A stretch of 64,000 nt of DNA. Source: Vulcanimicrobiota bacterium (lineage in GTDB: Bacteria > Vulcanimicrobiota > Vulcanimicrobiia > Vulcanimicrobiales > Vulcanimicrobiaceae). Numbering within the stretch: position 1 is the first letter of the stretch; every line of letters begins with the position of its first letter. Both the position numbers and the translations under genes were made by a program. Of the stretch, positions 6,830-46,156 are shown piece after piece. Under the pieces are notes generated by a model. That model made no database searches, was not told the DNA's origin, and saw only the letters and a list, made by a program, of their open reading frames with translations. The DNA is taken from positions 2,018,192 to 2,082,191 of the forward strand of contig PLJL01000004.1 of NCBI GenBank assembly GCA_003140215.1, in the 5' to 3' direction.

Positions 6830-7937
6830 GCTGCCGGGGCTGTTGCCGCGCGTCGGCACCTTTGCGCGCCGGCTGTGCGAGCTGGCTCCCCAAGGTCCGC
6901 CGGTCCTCGTCGTGCGTCTGCCGGAGCTGGAGCGAATCGCCTGGCGGCGCGGGCTGCGTGCGGCCCGGGCGCTGGAGCGCCGGGCGGCAGCGGCGTTCTC
7001 TACCGCGGTGTCGCGCGTCTTGCGGACCGACGACCTCGTGGCGCACGACGGCGGGAGCGACGTCTTTCTGGCCGCCCTCGCCGTCCCGACGCGCGACGGC
7101 GGCGCGGTTGCCGCGGCCGTCGACGTGCGGTCCGCGCTGGCCCGCATCGCGGCGGCGCTCGAAGCTTCGACACGGCTCGAAGTGCGAACCGGCTGGACGA
7201 CCTTCGACGGTGCAGATGCCGGCGCAATGGAGGCGCTCGTCGACCGCGCCCTGGTACGCGGCGCGCAGGAACGCGAGCGCTACGCGTTCTTCTCGTCGCT
7301 GGGCCACGAGCTGCGCACGCCGCTCTCCTCGATTCGCGGCTACCTCGAAACGCTGCTGGACGAGGACGTCGACGCCACGACGCGCGGACGTTTCGTGCGC
7401 ATCGCGTACAACGAAGCGTTACGCCTGTCCCGGCTGGTCGAAGGGATGTTCGAGATCTCCCTTTTGGACATGCGCGCGGCGCTACCCGCGCCGGCGAACG
7501 GTTCCTTCGTGCACGCGGTCGACGCCGCGCGCGACGCCTGCAGCGGCAGTGCGGCCGCGCGCGGCGTCTCGGTCGCATTCGACGAGGTTCCGGCGTTACG
7601 GGTGGCGATCGATGCCGACCGTCTCACGCTCGTGCTCGTCAACCTGATCGAGAACGCGATCAAACATGGGCGCCCGGGCGGGGGCGTCTTCGTGGGCATC
7701 CACCTCGATGACGACCGGCTCGTCCGCGTCACCGTCGACGACGACGGGCCGGGGATCGCGCCCGGCGACCGCGAGCGCGTCTTCGTCTTCGGCGACCGCG
7801 GCGTGACCGATGCGACCGGCAACGGCATCGGCCTCGCGCTCGTGCGGCTCATGATCGAGCGCGCCGGCGGCCGCGTCGACCTGGAGACATCCCCGCTCGG
7901 CGGAGCGCGTTTCATCTTAGCGGTGCCGCGCGCGTAA
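6816..7937 (+). CDS. Soluble histidine kinase with degenerate GGDEF-like sensor
   Basis: About 373 residues from TTG 6816. There is no transmembrane segment. Residues ~15-145 look like a worn GGDEF domain: VLVVRLPELERIAWRRG, then RTDDLVAHDGGSDVFLAAL where the signature GG[D/E]EF has become GGSDVF. Next come the HisKA helices with phospho-acceptor His ~163 in LGHELRTPLSS, then HATPase_c with N box NLIENAIKH, G1 DDGPGIAP and G2 GNGIGLAL. The kinase partners the response regulator upstream (14-base overlap). Its ATPase domain is the parent type for three shorter copies at 7966, 8832 and 14411. The start codon is inferred from the frame; TTG 6843 is an alternative. Confidence 0.85.
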   Translation: MHEPELPGLLPRVGTFARRLCELAPQGPPVLVVRLPELERIAWRRGLRAARALERRAAAAFSTAVSRVLRTDDLVAHDGGSDVFLAALAVPTRDGGAVAAAVDVRSALARIAAALEASTRLEVRTGWTTFDGADAGAMEALVDRALVRGAQERERYAFFSSLGHELRTPLSSIRGYLETLLDEDVDATTRGRFVRIAYNEALRLSRLVEGMFEISLLDMRAALPAPANGSFVHAVDAARDACSGSAAARGVSVAFDEVPALRVAIDADRLTLVLVNLIENAIKHGRPGGGVFVGIHLDDDRLVRVTVDDDGPGIAPGDRERVFVFGDRGVTDATGNGIGLALVRLMIERAGGRVDLETSPLGGARFILAVPRA

Positions 7938-7965
7938 CACCGTGATGATAGCTTAGCTTGTGGAG

Positions 7966-8059
7966 CGTGGCTCCTGCCGGAGGGCGCGTCGGTCTCGATG
8001 AGTCGCCGCTCGGCGGACCGCGCTTCGTGGTTAGCCTTCATGATCCGCTTCACAGGTGA
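7966..8059 (+). pseudogene. C-terminal remnant of a histidine kinase ATPase domain
   Basis: In the frame read through GGGCGCGTCGG the sequence gives GGRVGLDESPLGGPRFVVSL followed by a stop at 8057-8059. This is the same tail as the intact kinase (GGRVDLETSPLGGARFILAV), which ends only about 30 bases upstream. The remnant has lost everything before the last ~25 residues, so it is a duplication or deletion scar. It overlaps the stop of the convergent hypothetical gene at 8050 by a few bases. Confidence 0.7.
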
Positions 8060-8292
8060 ACCTGCGCCGCGAGCTTCGCGCACCCGGTATTGGGCGGCCA
8101 ATAGTCCGTGCCGGGCTCTTGCTCTGAACGTCGTGCGACCTCGAAGCGAACGAACGGAAATCCGGGCACGTAGCGGTACAGTGCAACACCGTGGCCATCT
8201 TGCGCGAAGAAACCCCATTCGCGACCTTCGCACGAAACCCCAGGCCGGATTTGCGCTGTGTAGACCGGCGCCTGAACATCATCGAGCATCAC
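8050..8292 (-). CDS. Small hypothetical protein
   Basis: An 80-residue reading frame rich in aromatic and charged residues (REWGFFAQDGHGVALYRYVPGFPFVRFEVARRSEQEPGTDYW shown only to mark its centre in two blocks: GHGVALYRYVPGFPFVRF and EPGTDYWPPN). It resembles no family I can name. It begins 30 bases after the stop of the membrane protein upstream and on the same strand, so the two may be cotranscribed. The composition looks coding, but there is no homology evidence. Confidence 0.4.
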   Translation of the reverse strand: MMLDDVQAPVYTAQIRPGVSCEGREWGFFAQDGHGVALYRYVPGFPFVRFEVARRSEQEPGTDYWPPNTGCAKLAAQVHL

Positions 8293-8322
8293 TGCGCCAA
8301 CGACGAAAAAGGCTATCGGAAA

Positions 8323-8673
8323 TCATCCGATGAGAACGATGAGCGGTGCCCATGCGACCGTACCGGCCGCGATCCCCACGATACGCGGACGGATCGACCA
8401 CGCAGCTGTTGCGAGGATACAGTACCCAACGAACGCGGCGGCCGGGAAGAGAAGGTTCAGCAGCGGCGACGACGTTTGCAGTCCCGTCAGCGTCATCAGC
8501 CCATTGAGCGAGAGTAGCACGGCGGCAAGAGCGCACACGGAGATAAACCAGACACGAGTGCCGCGCCTAGTACTCTGCGCGACCACCGCGAGCGCGATCG
8601 CTCCGGCGCCGACCTGAAAGCATACTTGGAGCACGAAGAGGTGCTCTAAAATCCACCACACAACGGGAAGCAC
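8323..8673 (-). CDS. Small integral membrane protein, unknown function
   Basis: A 116-residue protein from GTG 8673 with four hydrophobic segments, roughly residues 3-28, 40-62, 70-92 and 95-115 (for example LLNLLFPAAAFVGYCILATAAW). No catalytic or transport motif is seen. It is followed closely by the 80-residue gene at 8050-8292. It sits between two duplicated kinase fragments on the opposite strand, so it may be a remnant gene of the accessory zone. Confidence 0.5.
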   Translation of the reverse strand: MLPVVWWILEHLFVLQVCFQVGAGAIALAVVAQSTRRGTRVWFISVCALAAVLLSLNGLMTLTGLQTSSPLLNLLFPAAAFVGYCILATAAWSIRPRIVGIAAGTVAWAPLIVLIG

Positions 8674-8831
8674 GCTGACTTTGTATCACAAAGTATCTCG
8701 GACCGCAAGACTTCCTCACCGAGGATGATGATGATTTTACGGCCGTCGGCGGATCGAGGCGGAGGGTGTCCATAACTACGGCGCATGGCGGAGCCTGACA
8801 TGTCGCACCGAATAGATCGCGCACTGGTTCG

Positions 8832-9329
8832 GTGCTTTGCGAATCGGTTTGCCTTTTGGACCTCGCCGACGGCTCGTCACCGGCGACCGGATCGCTCGTT
8901 CGAGCACTCGAAGCGGCGCACGATGCCAGCGCCGCCAATGCCGCGCTACGCGGAGTTGGGATCGAGGTGGCCGGCAGTCCCGCGGTCGATGTTGCGATTG
9001 ACGCCGACCAGCTCACCCTGGTGCTCGTGAATCTGATCGAGAATGCGGTCAAACACGGGCGCCCCGGCGGCGTCGTCTTCGTCGGCGTCGACGTTTCCGA
9101 CCAGCACGATGTCCGCATCACGGTCGACGACGACGGTCCGGGGATAGCCAGTGGGGACCGTGAGCGTGTCTTCGCGCTGGGCGAGCGCGCCGGGGCATCG
9201 GCGAAGGGGAGCGGCATCGGACTTGCTTTCGTCAGGTTGATACTCGAACGCGCGGGTGGGCGCGTGGAGCTCGAAGACTCGCCGCTCGGCGGCGCACGCT
9301 TTACGATCCGCGTTCCCAAAGCTTCGTGA
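8832..9329 (+). CDS. Truncated histidine-kinase paralogue: stand-alone HATPase domain
   Basis: A 165-residue open frame that is colinear with the kinase at 6816 from its dimerisation-helix end (…LLDL) onward. All ATP-lid motifs are kept: NLIENAVKHGRPGG, VDDDGPGIASGDRERV, GSGIGLAFVRLILERAGGRV and SPLGGARF. The HisKA helix with the phosphorylated His and the whole sensor are missing. There is no convincing ribosome site before GTG 8832. It is either a decaying copy or a stand-alone ATPase. Retention of every nucleotide-binding motif despite sequence drift suggests it diverged while functional. Confidence 0.6.
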   Translation: MLCESVCLLDLADGSSPATGSLVRALEAAHDASAANAALRGVGIEVAGSPAVDVAIDADQLTLVLVNLIENAVKHGRPGGVVFVGVDVSDQHDVRITVDDDGPGIASGDRERVFALGERAGASAKGSGIGLAFVRLILERAGGRVELEDSPLGGARFTIRVPKAS

Positions 9330-37067: not shown

Positions 37068-38078
37068 TCAGACCTCCGAAAGCACCGGCGCAAGAGCGAA
37101 TGCGGTCGCGAGCAGCTCGTAGGAGTGCGCGCGCGACGCATAGTCGGGCGTGATGGTGAGCAGCATCGCCTCGTCGGCCTCGTGCGCGCCGGCAAGCGTT
37201 TCGACTCGTTCGCGTACACCGCGTCCCGTGCCTAAAGCGAGCCGGCGCCGGTTGTAGGCGATCTCCTCGCGCTCGTGTTCGTCGTACCGGTACTCCTGCG
37301 CATCGCGCAACGACGGCACCGGCAGATCGATGCCGCGCCGGATGCGCAGCCGCCACAGGTCGATCGTCGCTGCGAACCGCTCCGCTTCTTCGACCGTCTC
37401 GGCGGCGAGCGCGGCGACGCACAGGATGACGCGTGGTTCGCCGGCCCGAGCCGAAGGCTGGAAGTGCCGCCGGTAGGTTCGCGTGACCTCGGTCGCGTCG
37501 CCGCTGATGAAATGCGCGAAGGCGAACGGCAGCCCGAGCTGGGCGGCGAGCGACGCGCTGTAGTCCGAAGAACCCAGCAGCCAGACCTCCGGCGAGGAGT
37601 CGCCGCTGGGCATCGCGATGAGCTTGGCGAACGGATGCTGCTCGGGAAGCGCGCCGTCGAGGAAGCCGAGCAGGTCGAGCACCTGGCGCGGAAAGTCGCG
37701 GATCTCCGCCGATTCGAGCGCCATCGAAACGCGCTGTGAGCCGCCCGGCGCGCGGCCGATCCCCAGGTCGATGCGTCCGGGCGCGAGCGCTTCGAGCATC
37801 CGGAACTGTTCGGCCACCTTGAGCGCCGCGTAGTGCGGCAGCAGCACGCCGCCGGTACCCACGCGCATCGACGTCGTCTCGGCGGCGATGCGCGCGAGCA
37901 GGATCTCCGGAGCCGGATCGGCGAGCCCGCGCATCGCGTGGTGCTCGGCGAGCCAGTAGCGAGCATACCCGAGCCGCTCGGCTTCGCGCGCCAGCGCGAT
38001 CGTCGCGAGCACGGCCTCACGCGGCGACGTCCCGGCGAGGACGGGCGACTGATCGAGGATGCCGACGGGGAGAGCCAT
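37068..38078 (-). CDS. Luciferase-like (LLM class) flavin-dependent oxidoreductase
   Basis: 336 residues of the bacterial-luciferase TIM-barrel family, close to the MsnO8/YhbW type: SPVLAGTSPREAVLATIALAREAERLGYARYWLAEHH at the N-terminus (two blocks), TSMRVGTGGVLLPHYAALKVAEQFRML, RIDLGIGRAPGGSQRV and VWLLGSSDYSASLAAQLGLPFAFAHFIS. It uses reduced FMN or F420, which the sequence does not tell apart. Cotranscribed with the dioxygenase gene. Substrate unknown. Confidence 0.87.
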   Translation of the reverse strand: MALPVGILDQSPVLAGTSPREAVLATIALAREAERLGYARYWLAEHHAMRGLADPAPEILLARIAAETTSMRVGTGGVLLPHYAALKVAEQFRMLEALAPGRIDLGIGRAPGGSQRVSMALESAEIRDFPRQVLDLLGFLDGALPEQHPFAKLIAMPSGDSSPEVWLLGSSDYSASLAAQLGLPFAFAHFISGDATEVTRTYRRHFQPSARAGEPRVILCVAALAAETVEEAERFAATIDLWRLRIRRGIDLPVPSLRDAQEYRYDEHEREEIAYNRRRLALGTGRGVRERVETLAGAHEADEAMLLTITPDYASRAHSYELLATAFALAPVLSEV

Positions 38079-41182: not shown

Positions 41183-43126
41183 ATGAGGCAGATGTTCTTG
41201 CACGACGTCCCCCTCGAAGCGGCGCGGGCGCGCTTCGATGCGGCGCTCGAAGCGGCCGGCGTGACGATCGGTGCGACGCAGACGCTCGAGCTCGACGACG
41301 CGCTCGACCGGGTGACGGCGCGGCCGGTGATCGCCCGGGTGTCCTCGCCGCACTACCATGCGTGCGCCATGGACGGCATCGCCGTAGCCTCGGCCCGAAC
41401 GGTTGCGGCGCGCGAGACCGCACCGCTCGAGCTTGACGCCGGCGAAGCAATCGTCGTCGACACGGGCGATCCGCTCCCCGACGGCTGCGACGCGGTGATT
41501 CCGATTGAAGAGGTCGAGCCGCGAGCGAACGGACGCGTCGCGATTCGCGCCGCGGTCGCGCCGTTCGAGCATGTTCGCGCGATCGGCGAAGACATCGTCG
41601 CCAGTGAGGTGGTCGTCCCGGCGCTGCGGCGCCTGGTGAGCGCCGATCTGGCGGCGTGCGCTGCCGCCGGCGTGCTGCGCGTCGAGGTCGTTGCGCGGCC
41701 GCGTGTTGCCGTCATCACCACCGGCGACGAGCTCGTCGACGTCGGCACCGAAGCGCCGGCGCCGGGTGCGATCTTGGACTCGAACGGGGTTTTGTTGCGC
41801 GCCTGCGCGCGCACGTACGGCGCCGAGGTCGTCTTCGCACGCCGCGTCCGCGACGACGAGGCGGAGCTGCTCGCGGCGGTGGAGCACGCGATCGCCGCCG
41901 CCGATGTGGTCGTCGTCAACGCGGGTTCGTCGGCCGGTCGCGACGACTACACGGCGCGCACGTTTGCCCGCTTCGGCGAGGTCGTCGTTCACGGTGTCGC
42001 GATCCGCCCCGGCCACCCGCTCGTTCTCGCGGTCGCGAGCGGCTCGGGGCGGGCTGTTCCGCTGCTGGGAATCCCGGGCTATCCGGTCAGCGCGGCGATC
42101 TGCGCCGAGTTGTTCTTGCGACCGCTCCTCGAGCGGCTGGGCCGGCGCGACGGGCCCGACGCGCGCGACATCGAGGTCGAGCTGACTCGCAAGCTGTTCT
42201 CGCCGTTGGGCGAGGACGACTACGTGCGCGCCGTTGCCGCGCGCGTCGACGGACGTCTCGTCGCGACGCCGCTGCGCCGCGGGGCCGGTGCGATTACCTC
42301 GCTCTCGCGCGCCAACGTGATCCTCACCATCCCGCGCTTCAGCGAGGGTGCGCACCCCGGGACGCGCCTGCTCGCGCGCGCACTGCGGCCGCTCGCGCAG
42401 ATCGAGCGCACGTTGCTGGCGGTCGGGAGCCACGACGTCGCACTGGATTTGCTTGCGGGAAGGCTGGCGAGCGGCGGCACCGAGCTGGTGTCAGCGCACG
42501 TCGGGAGCATCGCGGGGCTCGTAGCGCTACGCGAACGCTCGGCCCACCTGGCCGGTACCCATGTGCTCGAGCCGCGCACCGGTACGTACAACGAGGATGC
42601 CGTGCGGCGGTACGGACCCAACGAGCCGGTCGCACTGATCCGGCTCGCGGATCGCGAACAAGGCATCCTGGTGGCGCCCGGAAATCCGTTGGCGATCGCG
42701 TCACTGGCGGACGTCGTGCGGACGCGCGCGCGCTACGTCAACCGCCAGAAAGACGCTGGGACGCGGATTCTGCTCGACGCGCTGCTCGCATCCGCAGGCA
42801 TTGCGGCGGAATCCGTCACCGGCTACGAACGGATCGAGTTCTCGCATCTCGCCGTCGCGCAGCTCGTCGCCGCCGGCAACGCCGATGCCGGTCTGGCGAT
42901 CGGCGCGGCGGCGCGGGCGTTCGGTCTAGACTTCATCCCGGTCGCGTGGGAACCGTACGAGCTGGCGCTCCCGGCGCGAACGCTCGACGAGCCGCGCATC
43001 GCCGCGCTGGTCGCAATCCTGCGTGGCGCCGCGTTCCGGAGCGAGGTCGAGGCGTTGGGCGGCTACCGCTGCGCCCGCGCCGGAGAGATCCGAGTCGTCG
43101 AGCCGCTCGCCCTGGAGGTTCCGTGA
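41183..43126 (+). CDS. MoeA fused to a periplasmic-binding-protein-like domain
   Basis: 647 residues. Residues 1-~405 are MoeA: SSPHYHACAMDGIAVAS, DTGDPLPDGCDAVIPIEE, VITTGDELVDVG, NAGSSAGRDDYTART, HGVAIRPGHPLVLAVA and GIPGYPVSAAICAELF. Residues ~415-640 are a PBP-like domain (LLAVGSHDVALDLLAGRL, AHVGSIAGLVALRERSAHLAGTHVL, LADREQGILVAPGNPLAI and GNADAGLAIGAAARAFGLDF), as in the fused molybdopterin-biosynthesis proteins of some archaea and clostridia. The PBP part may sense molybdate or a cofactor intermediate. It overlaps the peptidase gene by 4 bases (GTGA). Confidence 0.88.
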   Translation: MRQMFLHDVPLEAARARFDAALEAAGVTIGATQTLELDDALDRVTARPVIARVSSPHYHACAMDGIAVASARTVAARETAPLELDAGEAIVVDTGDPLPDGCDAVIPIEEVEPRANGRVAIRAAVAPFEHVRAIGEDIVASEVVVPALRRLVSADLAACAAAGVLRVEVVARPRVAVITTGDELVDVGTEAPAPGAILDSNGVLLRACARTYGAEVVFARRVRDDEAELLAAVEHAIAAADVVVVNAGSSAGRDDYTARTFARFGEVVVHGVAIRPGHPLVLAVASGSGRAVPLLGIPGYPVSAAICAELFLRPLLERLGRRDGPDARDIEVELTRKLFSPLGEDDYVRAVAARVDGRLVATPLRRGAGAITSLSRANVILTIPRFSEGAHPGTRLLARALRPLAQIERTLLAVGSHDVALDLLAGRLASGGTELVSAHVGSIAGLVALRERSAHLAGTHVLEPRTGTYNEDAVRRYGPNEPVALIRLADREQGILVAPGNPLAIASLADVVRTRARYVNRQKDAGTRILLDALLASAGIAAESVTGYERIEFSHLAVAQLVAAGNADAGLAIGAAARAFGLDFIPVAWEPYELALPARTLDEPRIAALVAILRGAAFRSEVEALGGYRCARAGEIRVVEPLALEVP

Positions 43127-44269: not shown

Positions 44270-46156
44270 TCAGGTCCAGTTCGACGCGCGGGCCGGCACC
44301 CCGGCCGCGGCGGCCGCGGTCGCGGCGCGCAGCGCGCCCAGTTCCTTTTCGCCGGCCAAGTCGGCGGCGCGGTCGTAGACCGGCGCCGTCGCGGTCACGA
44401 AGCTCTGTCGCTGCGCGTCGTCTTGTTCGGTGACCTGCATGCGGCGGCGCAGCTCGGCCAGCGCCTCGGCATCGAACTTCGCGGCATACTCGCGCTGCCA
44501 GGCGATCGCGCGTCGCGCCGCTTCCTCGACGAGTCGGCGCCGCGGGCCGAGCGCGGCCAGCAACTCGGGATTGGCGATGAAGATCTGCGGCGTGTACGTG
44601 TGCGCGGTGATGGTCAGGTAGCGCTGGTGCTCGTAGAACTTGGAGGCAACGATCGAGGGCAGCGGGCTGTCCTGTCCGTCAACGCGCTTTTCGCGCAACG
44701 CGTCCCCGAGCTTGACCAGCGGCATCGGAACGGGCGTCACCTGGAGCGCGCCGGCGACGTAAAGATGGATCGGCCCCTCGAGGGTGCGCATCCGCAGGTC
44801 GCGGATGTCTTCGGCGACGCGCAGGTCGCGCACGTCGTTGGTGTAGTGGCGCACGCCGTTCTCGCTGTAGCCCAGAAACGCCAGCTCCACGCTGGCGCCG
44901 CGCGCCAGCAGCGCGCGGCCGTAGGCGCCGTCGAAGGTCGCAAAGGCGTGTTTCCGGGAGCGGAACAGGTACGGCAGCTCGAGCAGCTGCAGCGCCGGAA
45001 GCAGGCTGCCGATCAGCGACGAGTTCACCGGCGCCAGCGCGAGGTCGCCGGTGCGCAGGTCGATCAGCAGTTGCGTCTGGCGCTTCTCGTACGGGATGAC
45101 GAGCTCGACGCGCAGCGCCCCGTCCGACAACGCCTCCAACTCGCGCTTGAACTCGCCGAGCATGCGCGCCGGCAGCGATTGCGGCGCCGCGGCGACGCCC
45201 ACGCGCAGCGCGCGGGTGGGAACGTGAACCGCCGGCGTCGCGGCGCGCTCCAGCGCGAGCTGCTCGTGGCTCTGGAACTCCAGGTTGCCGATCCATTGTT
45301 GCGTCTCGGCCGTGTCGGCGAAATGCTCGCGCACGCTGCGCAGCAGCGATCCGGCCGCCGAGCCGTATTGATCGCCGGCGGCGATCTCGCTGTCGATGAG
45401 GCGCTCGACCTCGGCGAACGTCGCCACCACTTCGGCGACGGCGCTCGAGATCGCGTCGAGAGCGGTGCGCGCGCCGCCGGCCGAGCTTTCGCTGCCTGCC
45501 ACGGCGGCGTCGAGCGAATCTCCGAACGCGCTCGTCGATGCACCGCGCTCGGCGATCTGCCGCAGCAACTCATCCATGTCGCGGGTGGCCTCGCGCGTGG
45601 ACTCGGCGAGTTTGCGGACCTCGCCGGCGACGACGGCGAATCCGCGGCCGTGCTCGCCCGCACGAGCGGCCTCGATCGAGGCGTTGAGCGCAAGGAGGTT
45701 CGTCCGTTCCGAGACTTCGCGCACGAAGTCGACGATGCCGTCGATCTTCTGGGTGAGCGCGAGCAGTTCGCCGATCGATCCGAGCGCGCTCTTCGTCACC
45801 CCGGCGAGCTCACCCGAGGCCGTGGTCAACTCCTCGATGCGGCGCCCGGCCGAACGCAACTGCTCGTCGGCTTCGGTGGTGCGAACACGCGCGTTGGCGA
45901 CCGTGCGTCCCGCGCCGCGAACGCGCTCCGCCGACGCCAGGGCCGCGCGCGCGATCTCCACGATGGCCGTCGTTTGGGCGATCCCATTCGCAGTGAGGCG
46001 GCCCGAGGCGGATCGCAGGCGTCCGATGGCGGCGCCCGTCTGCGTGCCAACTTCGCGCACGCGCGCCGAACGCACGGAATCCTCGGGCTGGTCACCCCGG
46101 CCGGCGCCGGTGGCGTCGGCCTCGGTACTCAAACTGAGCCTCCTCGGACGAGCCAC
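44270..46156 (-). CDS. Soluble methyl-accepting receptor fused to a TRAP-type DctP binding domain
   Basis: 628 residues from GTG 46156. Residues ~45-290 are a chemoreceptor signalling domain with the hairpin tip [20 protein letters not shown] and [17 protein letters not shown] (residues ~149-187). Residues ~316-620 form a DctP domain: [29 protein letters not shown] (two blocks), [10 protein letters not shown] (432-441), DLRMRTLEG with the ligand Arg, and [19 protein letters not shown]. There is no transmembrane segment or signal peptide, so both parts should be cytoplasmic. DctP normally is a periplasmic organic-acid receptor of TRAP transporters. No TRAP permease or che gene is adjacent. The order, receptor first and sensor last, is the reverse of usual MCPs. 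Confidence 0.85.

Follow-up and report, generated by a model that had tools for sequence, protein, structure and literature searches.

A probably soluble chemoreceptor carrying a TRAP-type DctP domain in Candidatus Eremiobacterota: a candidate intracellular carboxylate sensor

What would a solute-binding fold, whose relatives usually serve transport outside the cytoplasm, do behind the signalling hairpin of a chemoreceptor? The question is raised by a minus-strand open reading frame at 44270-46156 of the window (the whole stretch of 64,000 nucleotides analysed here), in which a single chain carries an MCP signalling hairpin and then a complete TRAP solute-binding (DctP) fold. We consider it likely that the product is a soluble cytoplasmic chemoreceptor, in which a carboxylate-binding DctP clamshell drives the MCP tip and CheA, and that its sensor belongs to a DctP lineage of Eremiobacterota that lacks export and has spread over three outputs.

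In this reading, the clamshell would sit at the base of the hairpin, where membrane receptors have their HAMP and transmembrane part. It would take up a small carboxylate in the cytoplasm and then close, and closure would shift the helix ends, altering the packing of the coiled coil and hence the tip, which would raise or lower CheA activity and so the flagellar bias. We infer the binding step, the type of ligand, the direction of signalling and the coupling to CheA. The lineage itself would have lost its export signal once within Eremiobacterota, giving rise to MCP-DctP, MCP-DctP-MCP and MarR-DctP proteins.

Architecture and cellular location

The features on which the analysis is built are as follows; residue numbers refer throughout to the 628-aa (GTG) reading.

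44270..46156, minus strand: MCP-DctP fusion ORF (stop codon 44270-44272; longest reading from a GTG start, 628 aa; Pfam)
46139..46144, minus strand: Shine-Dalgarno-like AGGAGG (sequence)
46130..46132, minus strand: likelier start codon TTG, residue 9 of the long reading, giving a 620-aa protein
45245..46090, minus strand: MCP cytoplasmic hairpin, residues 23-304, two long helices (AlphaFold2 model; Pfam MCPsignal)
45596..45712, minus strand: kinase-control tip, residues 149-187 (alignment; matches to solved MCP sequences)
44303..45211, minus strand: DctP (TRAP solute-binding, family 7) domain, residues 316-618 (Pfam; AlphaFold2; Foldseek)
44786..44794, minus strand: R-M-R, residues 455-457, presumed carboxylate-binding, both arginines invariant in 15/15 fused DctP domains

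The TTG at 46132 is probably the start of the gene, and the GTG at 46156 probably is not, since AGGAGG lies 6 nt upstream of the TTG and the resulting length of 620 aa matches that of the relatives (621 and 620 aa).

The earlier note on this DNA had placed an MCP signalling tip at about residues 149-187 and a complete DctP-type domain at about 316-620 of the same chain, and both assignments hold. Pfam MCPsignal (PF00015) matches residues 113-256 (E 9.3e-28; 97.7 bits against a curated cut-off of 34.6) and Pfam DctP (PF03480) residues 330-596 (E 1.8e-45; 155.9 bits against a curated cut-off of 23.4), while a TetR_C_24 match (E 0.46) stays far below its cut-off. Additionally, the protein matches the NCBIfam TRAP substrate-binding subfamily NF037995 (109.1 bits, cut-off 50) and does not reach the cut-off of TIGR00787 (138.4 against 175.05). 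The AlphaFold2 model, built on 17 sequences (mean pLDDT 80.9, pTM 0.65), shows a disordered start, two very long helices (residues 23-165 and 171-304) that form the MCP hairpin, and a two-lobe fold at 316-618 with pLDDT values of 86-97 across the ten-residue blocks from 321 to 620. The DctP domain is joined by a short linker to the second helix of the modelled hairpin, at the end opposite the tip.

The best Foldseek matches of the model are TRAP solute-binding proteins, with TM(target) values of 0.89 for 4pdh, 0.90 for 7bbr and 0.91 for 7bco at identities of 29-30%, the last two being titled sugar acid binding protein DctPAm; at least 74 distinct PDB sequences are matched by the domain at E ≤ 1e-20. 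The window domain thus has the family and the predicted fold of the DctP-type (family 7) proteins, of which 4pdh (Bpro_1871), 4p9k, 4p47 and 7bbr (the sugar-acid binder DctPAm) are the nearest solved. These proteins are exported, made of a single domain and partnered by a TRAP permease, whereas the window domain is predicted to be intracellular and is fused to a signalling module. In this regard, the available part of one report describes DctP and TAXI solute-binding proteins as consisting invariably of two lobes and a hinge alone (PMC12344293). No TRAP permease gene (DctQ/DctM) was found among the ten neighbouring ORFs scanned, which are part of those between window positions 37071 and 52478.

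The earlier note had also claimed that the protein lacks a membrane segment and an export signal, and we recognised neither by hydropathy or by reading of the sequence. Its highest 19-residue hydropathy is 1.37 (residues 380-398, within the DctP fold), compared with maxima of 2.95 and 2.34 in two transmembrane MCPs of the same genome that served as controls. Within residues 1-60 the maximum is 1.05 (residues 58-76, within the hairpin), and six exported DctPs of the same genomes span 0.99-1.75 over their first 60 residues; because these values overlap, hydropathy alone fails to separate the window protein from exported DctPs, and the absence of a signal rests also on the reading of the sequence. 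Outside the DctP domain, hydropathy stays at or below 1.66 in 63 MCP-DctP-type ORFs, many of which are one gene fetched twice, and one fusion (L012) reaches 2.07 inside the domain. The unfused DctPs inspected by eye from these genomes carry a Tat-like or Sec-like signal at their start, and in the scan of species' genomes described below 26 of 27 unfused DctPs begin with a hydrophobic stretch (1.24-2.88, a range that overlaps that of the fusions where signals are weak), the 27th starting outside the available DNA. MCP-DctP-type fusions should, on this sequence evidence, remain in the cytoplasm.

Descent and conservation of the putative sensor domain

The descent of the domain was followed in a maximum-likelihood tree of 85 DctP domains, drawn from 90 distinct ones (identical sequences counted once) after five short sequences had been dropped (L011, L030, L067, L105, L112). 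All 35 fused domains, from the three architectures, form one clade (bootstrap/SH-aLRT 100/100), set apart by a branch of length 0.94. Inside it the four MarR forms (100/99) and the two-hairpin forms (100/99) make clades of their own, and L073, coded as a one-hairpin form and interrupted by a contig end, groups with the latter. The 50 unfused DctPs fall outside; 24 of them belong to the same phylum, and the other 26, from outside it, were fetched with motifs taken from the fusions and so are near relatives by choice. One loss of export followed by spread across three outputs would be the simplest account of this tree.

When four unfused DctPs (L160-L163) of f16, a distant family of the phylum, were added, they were placed nearest to the fused clade (95/85) on a long branch, and the fused clade itself was kept at 100/99; long branches meet in both trees, as the tool warned. 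These four are not fusions; three show an N-terminal membrane anchor, and in the fourth, L161, a base close to the start is undetermined. At L162, the f16 locus whose neighbourhood was scanned, the DctP gene and the last part of a GAF-GGDEF gene overlap, and close by is a hybrid histidine kinase that contains sCache_3_2. The anchored f16 DctPs are possibly another signalling use of DctP.

Among the 15 fused DctP domains that were aligned, whose identities go down to 32%, both arginines of the R-M-R motif are invariant (R455 and R457, or R143 and R145 of the domain), and we take the arginine of R-x-R in the DctP family to be the residue that holds the carboxylate of the ligand. Invariant as well are E432, G434, H437, T439, Q495, H519, Y521 and Q524, while the nearly invariant N of a QENPL motif is S497 in the window protein (QDSPL). 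The DctP part appears to be under selection, because its Nei-Gojobori dN/dS is about 0.34 against both relatives (0.212/0.63 and 0.195/0.57), a rough value, as codon bias in a GC-rich genome depresses dS. From the fold and the conserved residues, the window protein would report an internal organic acid.

The same data bear on the idea that the DctP part has lost ligand binding and acts as a structural element instead, either a head that spaces or stacks the receptors of a cytoplasmic array or a docking surface for another protein. Cytoplasmic arrays are described in the available part of PMC3964821 as double layers in which the far ends of the receptors meet mid-way, and the DctP part does diverge faster than the tip, with 71-72% identity to the relatives compared with 91 and 93% for the tip region (residues 131-200) to L060 and L061. 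However, the arginines and clamshell positions are kept in all 15 sequences, whose domain identities fall as low as 32%, and MarR regulators that adjoin transporter and catabolic genes carry a domain of the same clade, a setting expected of a ligand sensor, not of a spacer in an array. We therefore regard the structural role as improbable and retain the ligand sensor as the preferred reading.

Chemosensory context and distribution of the fusions

The MCP-DctP gene appears to stand alone in the window. Its neighbours are functionally unrelated: a peptidase S58, an AHSA1 protein and an ArsR-type regulator are encoded there, along with two moeA genes, of which one includes a PBP_like domain. The moeA gene with the PBP_like domain (PF12727), at window positions 41183-43123 on the plus strand, lies two genes from the MCP-DctP gene; PF12727 is another binding-protein-like domain used intracellularly, and a 77% relative of this MoeA is also encoded near the MCP-DctP gene of L060.

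Whether the receptor would steer flagella can be approached through the gene content of 60 relatives, the window genome (G000) counted. CheW (PF01584) is found in 39 of them and flagellin in 25. The 12 other genomes with an MCP-DctP fusion (G002, G004, G006, G007, G008, G018, G019, G020, G022, G033, G036 and G040) all have both, compared with 27 (CheW) and 12 (flagellin) of the remaining 47, as raw counts uncorrected for kinship. The window draft genome, 86.68% complete, yielded three flagellin matches and several MCPs, and neither CheW (PF01584) nor the CheA dimerisation domain (PF02895) was found in it; comparison with the che region of G008 did not locate its che genes. These genes probably lie in the missing part of the draft, given its completeness and the presence of CheW in all eight other flagellin-bearing members of the genus, which has nine such members.

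It could be argued, alternatively, that the receptor senses a metabolite without steering flagella, its output being another chemosensory one such as type IV pili or gene regulation. In addition to the missing CheA and CheW of the draft, a genome of the same genus (G005) points this way, having CheW and no flagellin that we could find. It is probably that of Vulcanimicrobium alpinum WC8-2, a species described in the available part of PMC9758169 as lacking flagellin and moving by type IV pili. Against this, G005 has a MarR-DctP protein only, with no MCP-DctP match, and flagellin accompanies the fusion in every one of the 12 genomes listed above. A non-flagellar output thus seems rather unlikely, slightly more so than the structural role, and control of flagellar bias by an internal carboxylate is kept as the preferred output.

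The window protein has full-length relatives, aligned over nearly the whole length, in G006 (75%) and G008 (73%), a 70% relative in G002 that is interrupted by a contig end, and more distant ones in further genomes. A fusion of two adjacent genes by assembly or sequencing error can be set aside with near certainty, since full-length copies in two other assemblies and many more distant fusions contradict it.

Across the phylum, 32 of 149 Candidatus Eremiobacterota genomes have a match at E ≤ 1e-30, of which 28 are matched through both domains, two are seen in part where contigs end (G040, and G097, the latter being L105) and two (G005, G111) carry a different fusion. MCP-DctP fusions therefore recur in 30 of 149 genomes, the two partial ones included. 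Three architectures are present. MCP-DctP exists as the window type and as two that diverge further, MCP-DctP-MCP chains measure about 880-900 aa, and MarR-DctP is the third. Among the 30 fusion genomes, 23 have a whole MCP-DctP-MCP and two a cut one (G098, G097), seven have MCP-DctP (G000, G002, G004, G006, G007, G008 and, in part, G040), and G002 and G004 have both. In line with this, Pfam on ten representatives gave four MCP-DctP proteins (L012, L013, L061, L062), three with MCP stretches flanking DctP on both sides (L066, L068, L075) and three MarR-DctP proteins (L002, L021, L041).

Beyond the phylum, contigs of 84,980 species' genomes were scanned with two short motifs, the query being the 15-sequence DctP alignment. 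The 54 loci obtained divide into 27 single DctPs and 27 fusions, the latter comprising 20 with hairpins on both sides, two more of this type truncated where their contigs end (L073, L105), three whole MCP-DctP (L060, L061, L062) and two cut ones (L063, L067). All the fusions are titled Candidatus Eremiobacterota (NCBI phylum name Vulcanimicrobiota) or unnamed bacterium MAG, except L067, so that in this single two-motif scan, which divergent fusions elsewhere would escape, the fusions are confined to the phylum.

L067 (contig JAFALA010000085.1, labelled Burkholderiaceae) was rejected as a fusion from outside. Its flank is matched by every one of the 11 genomes of the window's genus, the ones with which it was compared (76-79% over about 1.1 kb in nine, 75% over 0.7 kb in G009 and 80% over 0.2 kb in G010), and the contig is probably mislabelled, likely mis-binned from that genus. 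Nine long DctP frames that ORF length alone suggested as further fusions (L024, L025, L027, L037, L042-L044, L047, L051) were rejected as well, because each reads as an exported DctP whose signal sequence is preceded by a spurious 5' extension. A short frame in G003 (C323; L030 1501-1854) is an isolated C-terminal piece, 53% identical to residues 510-622 of the window protein, and is possibly the remnant of a lost copy.

Related architectures and known systems

MarR-DctP proteins, found at L002 952-2433 (G000:C4:479674-481152), L021, L041 and L133/L139, are whole in G000, G004, G005 and G111, and the copy in G129 is truncated at the end of its contig, as obtained by a search with the MarR form; the window genome thus has both MCP-DctP and MarR-DctP. 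In G000, the MarR-DctP stop codon and the start codon of a Peripla_BP_6 solute-binding gene overlap. Further along the same strand come two BPD_transp_2 permeases, an ABC ATPase and a hydantoinase/oxoprolinase A, with hydantoinase B and a protein of the D-glutamate cyclase family (PF07286) beyond them. Hydantoinase A lies near all four MarR-DctP loci with enough DNA (G129 having too little), a LIV-type solute-binding gene lies directly downstream in three of the four (not in G005), hydantoinase B was found at the one locus tested, and the cyclase at both loci tested. An intracellular ligand is the natural reading for regulators placed beside transporter and 5-oxoprolinase-type genes, and this context supports an intracellular sensor role for the DctP lineage.

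5-Oxoprolinase and D-glutamate cyclase both handle 5-oxoproline. The structures 2pfy and 2pfz, which we take to be those of pyroglutamate-binding DctPs from Bordetella, are not among the matches listed for the DctP domain, so that the hint of pyroglutamate comes from the gene neighbours only. Since genes of these two kinds adjoin, and since a pyroglutamate-binding DctP subfamily is known in Bordetella according to the available part of PMC12344293, MarR-DctP may be a pyroglutamate-responsive local regulator. The hint is restricted to the MarR branch and does not extend to the window protein, which counts a sugar-acid binder among its nearest solved relatives.

Cytoplasmic binding-protein-like sensors occur in several kinds of regulators, among them LysR (PF03466), the LacI type and PBP_like (PF12727), all of which use a clamshell resembling that of solute-binding proteins as an intracellular ligand sensor, as is proposed for the window DctP. 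To our knowledge none of these belongs to the DctP family, and the MarR-DctP proteins are their nearest analogue. More generally, the kind is already known, as Pfam families of solute-binding proteins also serve as sensor domains in cytosolic signalling proteins, according to the available part of PMC9602780.

The earlier note knew of no described system with this domain order, a claim that stands in part. Helicobacter pylori TlpD (PAS-MA-CZB), as presented in the available part of a preprint (PMC12871147), is likewise soluble with its sensor after the MCP hairpin, so that a C-terminal sensor on a soluble receptor is already known. The sensor of TlpD is a zinc-binding CZB and that of the window protein a TRAP-type solute-binding fold, and TlpD differs also from those relatives of the window protein that carry hairpins on both sides of the sensor. 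In the openly licensed literature, judged mostly from listings and the opening lines of abstracts, we recognised no DctP domain in a chemoreceptor or a MarR regulator; the new element is DctP as the sensor.

If the proposed function is true, a binding-protein family with many solved relatives joins the intracellular sensors of bacteria, and chemotaxis may respond to an acid that is already present inside the cell. One sensor lineage on one-hairpin receptors, two-hairpin receptors and a DNA-binding regulator would amount to a natural experiment on the outputs of a clamshell, and one congener that carries the MarR form, by inference V. alpinum, is probably in culture.

The two-hairpin form, MCP-DctP-MCP, occurs at L066 5113-7776 and at 19 further loci. 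Its model (mean pLDDT 73.7, pTM 0.51, with low confidence in the DctP part at 416-501) shows hairpins of near-equal length, with helices 12-146 and 152-285 (break at 270) in the first and 616-753 and 755-887 in the second. As the hairpins are nearly equal, a single chain could supply all four helices of the bundle for which two chains are normally required. In 17 aligned sequences GLGF and EVGRLAK are invariant at the first tip, and the second tip reads G[RK]GF and EVR, resembling GRGF and EVR of the window protein. This suggests that the two tips may divide labour, the first being specialised and the second being like the window protein's own.

More tentatively, and at less than even odds in our judgement, a TRAP-fold lineage taken out of transport may have become a portable intracellular sensor with at least three outputs in one phylum, the hairpins of MCP-DctP-MCP pairing as a single-chain 'dimer' with one clamshell, one specialised tip and one kinase-controlling tip. 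Should the two-hairpin form fold in this manner, the number of ligand events needed per receptor dimer would be directly testable.

At one two-hairpin locus of G002 (L068 5131-8963), the start codon of a Peripla_BP_6 gene (7830-8963) overlaps the MCP-DctP-MCP stop codon, which suggests that the two genes are translated together and connected with ABC-type uptake.
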